NCBI RefSeq assembly: GCF_000203815.1
Contig: NW_004457715.1
Coordinates: 186,001 to 250,000 of the forward strand
Length of the DNA: 64,000 nucleotides
From: Cavenderia fasciculata
Taxonomy: Eukaryota; Evosea; Eumycetozoa; Acytosteliales; Cavenderiaceae
Direction: 5' to 3'
Position 1 is the first letter of the stretch; each line of letters starts with the position of its first letter. Shown piece by piece: positions 9,415-13,859 of this stretch. The position numbers and the translations under genes were made by a program. The notes beneath the pieces were generated by a model, which was not told the origin of the DNA, ran no database searches, and saw only the letters and a list, made by a program, of their open reading frames with translations.

Positions 9415-9624
9415 TGGCAGTGTCTGGTTGGCAGTGGCTGGCAGCGTCTGGTTGGCAGTGGTTGGCAGTGGTTGGCAGTGTCTGGTTGGCAGTGGTTGGC
9501 AGTGGTTGGCAATGACAGTGGCTGGTTGGCAATGACAGTGGCTGGTTGGCAATGGCAGTGGTTGGCAATGACAGTGGTTGGCGATGACAGTGGTTGGCAA
9601 TGACAGAGTGGCAGTGACTGGCAG
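9415..9624. repeat. Minisatellite built on TTGGCAGTGG / TTGGCAATGACAGTGGC
   Basis: About 210 bp of imperfect tandem units. The left part uses 10-12 bp units (TTGGCAGTGG with TGTC or CGTC variants). The right part uses longer units of about 18-20 bp that add AATGACAGTGG. It is strikingly G/C-rich and strand-asymmetric (G and T on the plus strand) in an A/T-rich genome. The apparent ORFs across it (His/Cys/Gln/Pro repeats) are by-products of the repeat. Confidence 0.85.
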
Positions 9625-9934: not shown

Positions 9935-10010
9935 AAGATGTCGTCATGGAAGATCACTCGATTTTAACAGTGTAATAAAGGTAGTCAGTGATCACCCATG
10001 ACGACATCTT
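9935..10010. repeat. Near-perfect inverted repeat (24-bp arms, 28-nt loop)
   Basis: Left arm 9935-9958 and right arm 9987-10010 are reverse complements except at two adjacent positions; the outer 15 bp (AAGATGTCGTCATGG) pair perfectly. A transcript of either strand would fold into a stable 24-bp hairpin. It is too G/C-rich and precise to be a chance A/T palindrome. It could be a small-RNA precursor or the end of a degraded element. Confidence 0.75.
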
Positions 10011-10162: not shown

Positions 10163-11388
10163 TTAATTTGATTCTTCTTCTATTTCTTCGTCAGTGTCAA
10201 TATCATCTTCATCAAATGTTTCATCACCATCTTGGAAATTATTATTATTATTATTATTTACAATAATATCATGATTGATTGACATTTGGTTGGTATTATT
10301 TGTTTGGGACTGCTGCTGTTGTTGTTGTTGTTCCTGTTTAGCTAATTGAATTTTTTCTGCTTTAGATTTTTTATATCTTTCATTGATGTACTTTGAGAAA
10401 CATCTTTTACAGCTAGCTGAATAATGTCCACTCTTGCTTAGATAGAACAGGTCGAGTGGAAGATTGGTGTTGGGGGTGCCCGTATTGGCAAGATGGTTTT
10501 CATTGTAACAGGTCTTGGTGCCTCCCTCGCTACCACTAACACCTGACATATTGTTTTGGGTGGTGGTGGTGGTAGTTGTTGTAGTTCCATCCTCTTCTTT
10601 TTTGATACTAGTAATTGGAGATCCTGGAAAATGGGGGTTGTCCTCCCTTTCCTTTTTTGCATAATTCAATCCACATGCGTTGCAGAGAGAGGCTGGTCCA
10701 TTAGGTCCTCGTCTCCACTCGGGTGTTTGAGTGATACCACACTGATGACAAAATAATTTGGTGAGGTCTGTCTTTGTCGATCGTCTTCTATGCCTTTTCT
10801 TGATAGTGCCATGGTTACCACCCGAATCACTATCAAATGAATCCACTGCAGCCTCAATCGCTGCTTCAATTGTATCGTTAATTGGTGTCACGGCAGTTGA
10901 TGATGATGATGGTGGTGCCACCAACTTTGGAATCATAGGAAATGATGATGTATTAGGTATAGTTGATTTTGATGGTGATTTTGTTGTTGTTTTTGATTTG
11001 GATGACAAAGTAGTAGTGGAAGTAGTAGAAGATGGAGTCGGGGTAGAAGTAGCAATTGGATGATTTCCATTTGACTTGCCTTGTTGTTTTTCCATTCTAG
11101 TAAAACTTTGACATTTCTTACACTTTAAAACATATCTAAATATCCAAACAAATATAAATATTAATATCTATTTAACGATTATTTTATAATTATTTGTTTA
11201 TATATATTGTTTATACATACCGTCCTCCACATTGATAAAATTCATCTGTTGGTAAGTGTTCACAACTATATCCAGTGATTTGATCATGTCTTGGATATTT
11301 ACAAGTCATGAATTTTTGACCAAGATTCTCTACACTCATAATGGTTCTTCCAGAACTAGTTAAATTTTCTCTTTTAATCAAATCATCG

Positions 11389-11442
<54 letters not shown>

Positions 11443-13859
11443 TGGTCATTCTGGTTATTATTATTATTTTGATTATTAATACTAGCTTCATGATCTTCAT
11501 AGGCATTTGTAATTGTATACTTTTTATATTTTCTTTTTGTTGTTGGTTTGCTTGATGTATTGTCTATTTCCTTTTTATCATCAATTGTGTTGTTGTTGTC
11601 AATGCTATCTTGCATTTCCATTATACTATCAGTATCACAATCTTCCTCGTATATATCATTGGAAATGGGATTGTTCGTTGTTGTTGTTGTTGATGATGTT
11701 GATGTTGTTGAGGTACTAGTAGTTGATTGGCTTTTTTCCAGAGCAGCAGCAGCTTTAGCTTGTTTTCGTTCATAGTATATTCTAATGTGACACTTTTTAC
11801 AGCGCTGCTTATATCTTCCATTATAATAATAAAACTCTCGGAGAGGAATCTGTTTAGAGTCTGTTCCCCACCAAACAAAGTGATTTGCTTCAGAACATGG
11901 TTTTACTTGAGTTCCATACATATTGGGGTTTGGTGTTGTAGTTGTTGTTGTAGTACTAGTTGTAAAAGTAGTAGAAAGATTATCATTATCATTATTATCA
12001 TTCATACTATTATCATTATCAATATTATCATTATTATTATTATTTATATTTTCATTTTCGTTATTATTATTTTTCTTGTCTAGTAGAGCAGCTTTTGTTG
12101 ATTTTTCATGATAATGACATCTTTTACAACGATAGGATGATTTTGAAATAAAATCAGATATATACAGATTCTGAGGATCGGTTCCCCATAATTCAACATG
12201 TTGTTTTGATTGACATAATTTTCTAGTTGTATTTTCATTTTCATTTATATTATTTATCTGTTGATTGTTATTATTATTAGTAGTAGTAGTAGTAAAAGTC
12301 GTTGTAATATTATTATTCTGTTGGTCTTGATTTTGTTGTTGTTGTTGATGATTATTAATATGATCAGTAATAATATGATTTAAACTCTTGTTGATTATGC
12401 TTGTTGGTGGAGTAGTAGTAGTATTTGTTGTATTATTATTATTAGGTTGAGAATTCTTATTTGCATTGGCAAATAGAGTATTTGATATAGAGTCTTCAAT
12501 GGAACTGATATTGTATTGGAACCCTTTAGTATCTATACTAGTAACACCACTATTTCCACCACTACTGCCAACAGCTGATTTGGATATTTTTGGTGTTGGT
12601 ATTGGTACTGGTGTTGGTATTGGTGTTTTTGCTGCTGCTGCTGCATTTTTTACTGATGGTGCCTTGTTGGTTCGATGTCTCATTGAAATATAGGCAGCAA
12701 AACACTTTTTACATTTGTTGGAATGCGTTGATGTGTAAAACATGTCCAATGGTAGATTCTCTGGATTGGTGCCAGTAAGTGTTTCGTGGTTGGGGTCATG
12801 ACATGTTTTAAATAATTCACCATTGACATTTAAAACATGTAAAACTCTAACATTTGTTGATGTAGTGATCGATCCTTCACCATTATTATTATTTATCTTC
12901 ATACGTGTTGATCTTTGAGGTGTAGGTGGAGGAGGTTGAGGTAGAGGTTTAGATTCTTCTTCCAAAATCATATCATCTTGGTCATTATCTATTTCCATCT
13001 TTTTGCTCCCTATTATTTCTTTGTTTTTGTTACTATTATTATTGATATTTTTAGTCTTTTTGAGTGGTCTTTCAGTAACAATAACAAGATTGGGTTGTTC
13101 TTTTTCATCATCATCATCCCCATCATATGATGAAGTAGGGGATTCCATTTCCTTTCCCTTTGCAGCTTCATCGACAATGACAAGTGTATTGTTGTGGTGT
13201 ACGGGTGCAGATGCAGATGGTTCGAATGTTGTTTCTGCTACTGCGACTCCATTTGAGCTCGGCAGTTTGATCGACAAACTATTAAATGGTTTTGTTGATC
13301 CATTTGCTGTTGATGTTGTTGTAGGGATGGTGGGAATGGTCACTGCGATTGGTCTATTAGAGTAGGGCAAAGAGTTAAAAAGGAATGGTAATGTACCACC
13401 ACCACCACTTGTTGTGCTTGTTGACGACGATGGTGACATTGACGTTCGACCTCCAATACGGAGACTGCCAAATGGAGATGACGACGATGACGATGATGAT
13501 AATGGTAATGTTGATGACGACGACGATGATGATGACTCGCCTCTTTCCCCTGTCTTCGTAGTCGTACTACTAGTAGTTGAAGTAGATCCTGGTAGAGACG
13601 ACACCCTTTTAAATGGTGTATCCCTTTCCCTCTCTCTTTTATTATTTACATTATTATTTACATGATTGTTGCTATTATTATTATTATTATTATTATTATC
13701 AGGTGAGCGACATGACGATAATGTTGATGCCGACGACGATGCTGTGATACTATCGTCATCACTTGCAATATTGGCATTATCTACTAACTTGTCTATACTA
13801 TTGTTATGACTGTTATTAGTGTGACCATTACCATGGAATTTAAAAAACCTTTGTTGCAT
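10163..13859 (-). CDS. GATA zinc-finger transcription factor with five extra Cys/His modules
   Basis: Two exons, 13859-11221 and 11135-10163, joined by a 85-bp GTATGT...TAG intron, give 1203 residues. A single GATA-type finger lies in exon 2 (CHQCGITQTPEWRRGPNGPA...CNACGLNYAKK, pattern CX2CX17-18CX2C). GATA fingers bind (A/T)GATA(A/G) DNA. Five copies of another motif occur: C-x4-H, then a 'GT(D/N)xxxLPxxxFY' stretch, then CK(K/R)C; cores are CHDPNH...CKKC, CQSKQH...CKRC, CSEANH...CKKC, CKYPRH...CKKC (this copy is split by the intron) and CYNENH...CKRC. The rest is low-complexity Ser, Thr and Asn. A role in developmental transcription is inferred from the GATA family. Divided by eye it could be mistaken for two genes; the intron makes it one. 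Confidence 0.85.

Follow-up and report, generated by a model that had tools for sequence, protein, structure and literature searches.

The window analysed here is a 64,000-nt stretch of the Cavenderia fasciculata genome (contig NW_004457715.1, positions 186,001 to 250,000; G+C content 33%). It carries on its minus strand a gene for a GATA factor whose product contains five copies of a small Cys/His module. The assembly comprises 31.0 Mb in 21 contigs, which are designated C1, C3, C4, and so on below. The gene and its parts are as follows (aa, amino acids).

10163..13859, minus strand: GATA-factor gene with five Cys/His modules (open frame after removing one predicted intron; Pfam GATA)
12660..12809, minus strand: module 1, aa 351-400 (sequence, leave-one-out profile)
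12075..12224, minus strand: module 2, aa 546-595 (sequence, leave-one-out profile)
11751..11906, minus strand: module 3, aa 652-703, structure predicted (sequence, leave-one-out profile)
11081..11309, minus strand: module 4, aa 851-898, split by the intron (sequence, leave-one-out profile)
11136..11220, minus strand: predicted intron, 85 nt, GT..AG, phase 2 (splice predicted from sequence alone)
10649..10756, minus strand: GATA zinc finger region, aa 1007-1042 (Pfam match 1009-1043; PF00320)
10367..10516, minus strand: module 5, aa 1087-1136 (sequence, leave-one-out profile)

The gene limits given by a first-pass annotation of this DNA were correct: the frame is open from an ATG at 13859 to a TAA at 10163 and encodes 1203 aa once the intron is removed. 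The annotation was also right that module 4 is split by the only intron (GT..AG at 11220..11136), which sits 13 nt 5′ of the first Cys codon of CKKC. The GATA finger was the sole family recognised in a Pfam scan of the 1203-aa protein (PF00320, E = 1.7e-15; 56.7 bits vs. a cut-off of 26.8). With a finger above the Pfam cut-off the protein can be classed as a GATA transcription factor, for which binding to GATA sites is predicted. The finger is placed between modules 4 and 5, with four modules N-terminal and one C-terminal to it, and the linkers separating the modules are rich in Asn, Thr, and Ser. Rfam and tRNA scans of the window gave 0 and 0 matches.

All five modules showed the same layout: C-x4-H (5/5), 23 to 27 residues, CK[KR]C (5/5), and then a basic stretch. 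When each module was left out in turn, a profile of the other four scored it at 29.5 to 60.3 bits. For each of the five modules, this score was matched by 0 of 1000 full shuffles and by 0 of 1000 shuffles in which Cys and His were held fixed. Chance spacing of Cys and His was ruled out as an explanation by both shuffle tests. The proposal of five related copies with C-x4-H and CKxC was thus borne out by the spacing and the shuffles, whereas the description of the intervening part as "GTD/N..LP..FY" held in part: modules 1, 3, and 5 fit best, with LYISDF found in module 2 and GYSCEHLPTDEFY in module 4.

Searches seeded with seven different modules, plus a scan of the retrieved loci by profile, located at least 31 module copies in 11 genes of the genome. 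Only the best candidates are scored by the search, which makes these counts minimum values; the spacing was present in 31/31 copies, which were collected partly through that same spacing. The window GATA gene holds five copies, and the genes at C18:2 kb and C12:223 kb hold two each, the His-to-CxxC part of the first C12 copy being degenerate. A tandem series of four genes at C1:354-369 kb, with limits and four splices assigned by eye, holds 2, 3, 7, and 6 copies (18 in total). Single copies were found at C1:157 kb, C1:1144 kb, C4:1152 kb, and C3:2552 kb. The tandem cluster also shows signs of duplication, with CRRxKLNNPDNNxDHPxN stretches common to its genes.

A single conserved intron site within the modules was rejected because the introns of five modules differ in position. 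As read from the sequence, three of them precede the codon for the first CxxC Cys by 12, 12, and 13 nt, one lies directly before the first Cys, and one lies directly before the second Cys. Module introns are in phase 0, window module 4 excepted (phase 2).

Ten of the 11 carrier genes had no GATA match. The genome gave 24 GATA matches, 23 of them above the cut-off, and among these 24 loci (approximately 3.1 kb each) modules were found only at the window's own. Both modules of the C18 protein follow a WRKY domain (Pfam E = 4.4e-15; 58.0 bits vs. a cut-off of 21). In the C12 protein, a WRKY domain (43.9 bits vs. a cut-off of 21; E = 8.4e-10) is flanked by one module on each side, which score 19.8 and 31.7 bits with the module profile. 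Modules were therefore present in two of the three WRKY loci of the genome; the third, with two WRKYGQK domains, had no module in the 2.5 kb examined, which is less than the whole frame. The protein at C1:1144 kb has a C2H2-like finger that was read by eye and has no Pfam match. In the seven other carriers, the scanned parts gave no Pfam match to a DNA-binding domain; some of these carriers were scanned in pieces, and first exons may be missing. No HNH domain match was found in the window protein or the scanned open reading frames (ORFs) of the carriers. The module is thus not peculiar to GATA factors, occurring also in WRKY and C2H2-like finger proteins.

Several further features of the carriers were observed. 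The WRKY domains at C12 (L463) and C18 (L067) have kept the Cys/His end, and their WRKYGQK signature is absent. The C-termini of the C18 WRKY, C12 WRKY, and C1:368-kb proteins have an end motif in common (FIQNLVSMLLNGIKKE, FINTLVSMLIGSIK, and FIQQLISILMKK, respectively), which points to the three being paralogues, the third having lost its WRKY domain. A second Cys/His motif, approximately C-x4-C ... H-x4-H-x2-C-x3-C-x2-C, is N-terminal in three module carriers (L076/L067 at C18, the L034 gene at C1:368 kb, and L008 at C1:157 kb). In blastp comparisons of selected stretches with composition correction off, this motif gave E-values of 4e-7 to 1e-4, but L008 matched the C1:368-kb stretch at only 0.09.

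The two Cys, the His, and the first Cys of the module (C, H, C, C in order) were invariant in all 24 aligned copies, and the Phe of LPLxxFY was conserved in at least 90% of them. Net charge was positive in 29 of the 31 copies, with a mean of +4.9. The proportion of nonsynonymous differences (pN) was lower than that of synonymous differences (pS) in 44 of 44 same-length pairs from 22 unsplit copies, pairs that are not independent of one another (best pair, pN 0.198 vs. pS 0.779); the module sequence is therefore under constraint. AlphaFold2 was run on module 3 with an alignment of the four unsplit window modules. The best model had a predicted local distance difference test score (pLDDT) of 92.5 (87.7, 63.4, 63.3, and 56.5 in the other four) and a predicted template modelling score (pTM) of 0.71. 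In this model, a short helix starts from the His (residues 12-16), strands 28-31 and 34-39 form a hairpin, and a long helix (40-59) begins at the Lys of CKxC, in a domain of approximately 55 residues. The helix-like basic sequence that had been noticed after CKxC was recovered, as a basic stretch in the modules and as predicted helix 40-59 in module 3. The invariant residues and the predicted fold are compatible with zinc binding through C, H, C, and C, and the module probably binds zinc in this way.

No Pfam or NCBIfam family matched more than one of the 24 copies. Eight Pfam and three NCBIfam families each matched one copy (best NCBIfam E = 0.024), and the window modules and module 3 alone scored below cut-off. 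The Pfam matches to PyrI_C (0.002), STEEP1 (0.003), and Fer4_11 (0.0084) were set aside as chance because each family matched 1/24 copies. No such module was described in the published literature at the level of listings and abstract openings, outside subscription papers and supplements; PMC6873476 and PMC12714135 deal with dictyostelid factors, and the module is unmentioned in the passages of these two papers that were available. The idea of a novel GATA-factor repeat thus stood with respect to novelty, no already described family having been found in Pfam or NCBIfam, and fell with respect to the restriction to GATA factors, given the spread of the copies over 11 genes.

The first-pass annotation had likened the module to the short zinc ribbon of phage endonuclease VII-like HNH proteins. 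Two sets of ribbons were compared with it. Set A (72 ribbons from 80 loci among the matches listed) was fetched by the ribbon motif itself and favours resemblance because it was selected on the motif that matches. Set B was fetched via the endonuclease VII HNH motif, a selection that does not favour resemblance; among the matches listed, 36 of the 80 ORFs examined had an upstream C-x2-C..C-x2-C, five of these 36 with PLxxF. The hhalign probability was 97.0% against the 72 PLxxFY ribbons, 95.5% against the 36 HNH-motif ribbons, and 91.5% against the 27 of these 36 without P[LI]xx[FY]. In each of the three comparisons, 0 of 100 decoys (columns permuted, C/H fixed) attained the real score. A profile of the 24 copies was also run on 56,172 ORFs from 379 loci of viruses and bacteria, a set enriched in ribbons by design. 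In this check, a form of which the first-pass annotation had proposed, endonuclease VII-type ribbons ranked highest (L156, 2e-4; L217, 2.7e-4; L187, 7.5e-4; L123, 0.0015; L298, 0.0025; L114, 0.0027; L261, 0.0028). Sixteen loci matched at E ≤ 0.01, 12 from the ribbon search and four from the HNH search.

Other sequence searches gave weaker signals. With the module profile, the best match among Protein Data Bank (PDB) sequences was the N-terminal part of PacI at a weak E of 0.078, and the next matches were at chance level (NADH-quinone oxidoreductase subunit I, 0.34; uS14, from 0.44). The same search gave nothing useful with the five window modules alone, and the phage ribbon profile had 0 matches at E ≤ 1. 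In PHROGs, where 17 families were matched, endonuclease VII was hit by 2/24 copies (best 0.011) and HNH endonuclease by 3/24 (best 0.043); the best single value, 0.009, belonged to a family of unknown function. A tblastn search of phages with one module returned 12 records (best E = 3), and two single-module searches of viral contigs returned 28 and 31 pattern stretches with no relative among them. The pattern C-x4-H..WGT..P was found in 19 viral-contig and at least 120 prokaryote stretches, all with a module-profile E of 0.02 or worse, and a narrower pattern had no match in the retrieved loci.

The likeness to the phage ribbon is confined to one part of the module. Profile comparison and predicted secondary structure agree on a PLxxFY-like hairpin followed by CKxC, a C-x2-C half-site, and a helix. 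The first half-site is C-x4-H in 24/24 copies, in place of the first of the two C-x2-C of a ribbon, and the downstream HNH nuclease domain is absent. A model of the phage ribbon (31 sequences; pLDDT 96.2) had strands 16-18 and 26-30 and a helix at 31-50; L13, F16, and C30 of the ribbon are equivalent to L25, F28, and C39 of the module, and the elements coincide save for the module's extra helix. The structure prediction suggested earlier for one module thus returned the hairpin and long helix of the phage ribbon at the same motif positions. Both have LxxFY, the hairpin, and CKxC in the same order and position, with the long helix starting from the Lys of CKxC. The module differs in that C-x4-H replaces C-x2-C, seven residues are inserted with a short helix following the His, an HNH domain is absent, and a protein can hold several copies.

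Foldseek of the module against the PDB found no relative, its three matches being at E = 6.9 (the zinc domain of HPV E6) or worse. This negative says little because a true phage ribbon found the nucleases Hpy99I and PacI at only E 1.4-1.7 (PacI at rank 2, E = 1.6). The N-terminal part of PacI (3ldy, 3m7k) has NLxxDEFY..CKxC in common with the module, but it belongs to an HNH nuclease whose zinc sites are Cys4, and the E-values of its matches are weak. In a search of viral protein models, the top match was a "Restriction endonuclease HNH" of Clandestinovirus (E = 0.042, probability 1.00, TM 0.72, rmsd 1.4 over 60 columns). Rank 7 went to a phage "Recombination endonuclease VII", with more HNH proteins lower down; many of the 50 matches listed were uncharacterised or unnamed, and 0 of the 98 matches reached 0.001. 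The fold class is a known one, and the C3H form, the multiplication, and the place in transcription factors appear to be new.

The C. fasciculata genome itself contains endonuclease VII-like HNH ORFs at C1:2103853, C16:719767, and C11:414883 (E = 2.6e-6 to 7.5e-6), plus three weaker ones. Two of the five loci examined had a Cys-rich ribbon-like stretch nearby, and 0/5 had a C-x4-H module by eye.

GATA fingers consist of a zinc knuckle, a hairpin, and a helix, as in the module, and in the window the two occur in the same protein. Comparison with 10 GATA fingers of the same genome (22 loci tried, 10 usable) gave an hhalign probability of 1.0%, with 71 of 100 decoys equal or better, and the modules were rejected as extra GATA fingers. 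This failure also bears on whether the likeness to nuclease ribbons is a convergence of small zinc knuckles, the module having arisen anew in dictyostelids and not from HNH proteins. The short domain, a first half-site that lies outside the match, the weak E-values of the fold searches, and the selection of set A on the matching motif itself all fit such convergence. It is nevertheless rather doubtful, because the ribbons chosen without regard to the motif still align with high probability, including those without P[LI]xx[FY], no decoy does as well, four HNH-search loci match the module profile at E ≤ 0.01, and GATA fingers fail to match.

The module is a little more probably than otherwise a C3H variant of the endonuclease VII-type ribbon that serves as a repeated accessory DNA/chromatin-binding module; zinc, DNA contact, multivalency, and common ancestry are what we infer here. 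One zinc per module would be held by four ligands, the Cys-His pair of C-x4-H and both Cys residues of CKxC. Between the half-sites, LPLxxFY would lead into the hairpin, and a basic helix of approximately 20 residues would extend from the Lys of CKxC. The module would be a diverged (C3H for C4) relative of the treble-clef-like endonuclease VII/HNH front ribbon, without the nuclease, that multiplied in the amoeba and became part of DNA-binding transcription factors (GATA, WRKY, C2H2-like finger). The classical finger would read the target site, and modules on Asn/Thr/Ser-rich linkers may add several weak DNA or nucleosome contacts via their basic helices, resulting in multivalent binding. Such accessory contact is favoured because three carriers hold GATA or WRKY domains and a fourth a C2H2-like finger, 29 of 31 copies are basic, and a basic helix is predicted. 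If the module does bind DNA, target prediction for these factors changes.

Other observations weigh against DNA contact and point instead to protein-protein adaptors, which would recruit chromatin or co-regulator complexes to GATA/WRKY sites, the number of copies raising avidity. A review calls the zinc motifs of HNH restriction enzymes structural and unrelated to sequence recognition (PMC4081073). Moreover, 17 of the 31 phage ribbons match the Stc1 domain in Pfam (PF12898; best 1.2e-6), a eukaryotic chromatin-linked zinc domain, and zinc-region mutants of fission-yeast Stc1 lose association with a protein partner, Ago1 (PMC2875855). In addition, the scanned parts of eight of the 11 carriers lack a Pfam DNA-binding domain. 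However, Stc1 differs from the module in being described as LIM-like with tandem zinc fingers (PMC2875855), Stc1 itself was matched by 0/24 modules at E ≤ 5, and the basic charge fits nucleic acid at least equally well; we regard adaptors as the main rival and, on balance, as unlikely. A search for Stc1 in the same genome gave no signal anywhere and was uninformative.

Basic zinc modules can bind RNA, and the modules might accordingly tether nascent or regulatory RNA to the factors. Weak profile matches to uS14 (best E = 0.44) are the other point in favour of RNA in place of DNA, but these matches do not rise above chance. In the parts scanned, Pfam DNA-binding domains occur in three carriers and an RNA-binding domain in none; RNA binding is accordingly the least probable of these functions by a wide margin.

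As to origin, descent from nuclease ribbons would make the module a clear case of transcription factors drawing on parts of mobile elements. Clandestinovirus is a giant virus of amoebae, and its HNH protein as the best structural match of the predicted module is compatible with a viral donor. Speculatively, a part of a phage- or giant-virus-type HNH nuclease may have been taken up by a social amoeba, converted from the Cys4 to the Cys3His form, and multiplied into a general accessory domain of unrelated factors, a sequence of events that we think has perhaps somewhat over a quarter of the weight of belief on its side. In the plant AP2 domain, part of a homing nuclease has become a regulatory domain of eukaryotes, and viral or phage capture, if true, would provide a second case beside it.

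Two features were observed 3′ of the GATA gene. A near-perfect hairpin at 9935-10010 of the window (minimum free energy −36.5 kcal/mol, z = −8.3; 0/200 shuffles as stable) is flanked by the gene's 3′ end on one side and a tandem array on the other; it is the sole occurrence found in the genome and could be a small RNA gene or the trace of a mobile element. The tandem array, at 9415-9623, consists of TGGTTGGCAGTG-like units with several overlapping periods.
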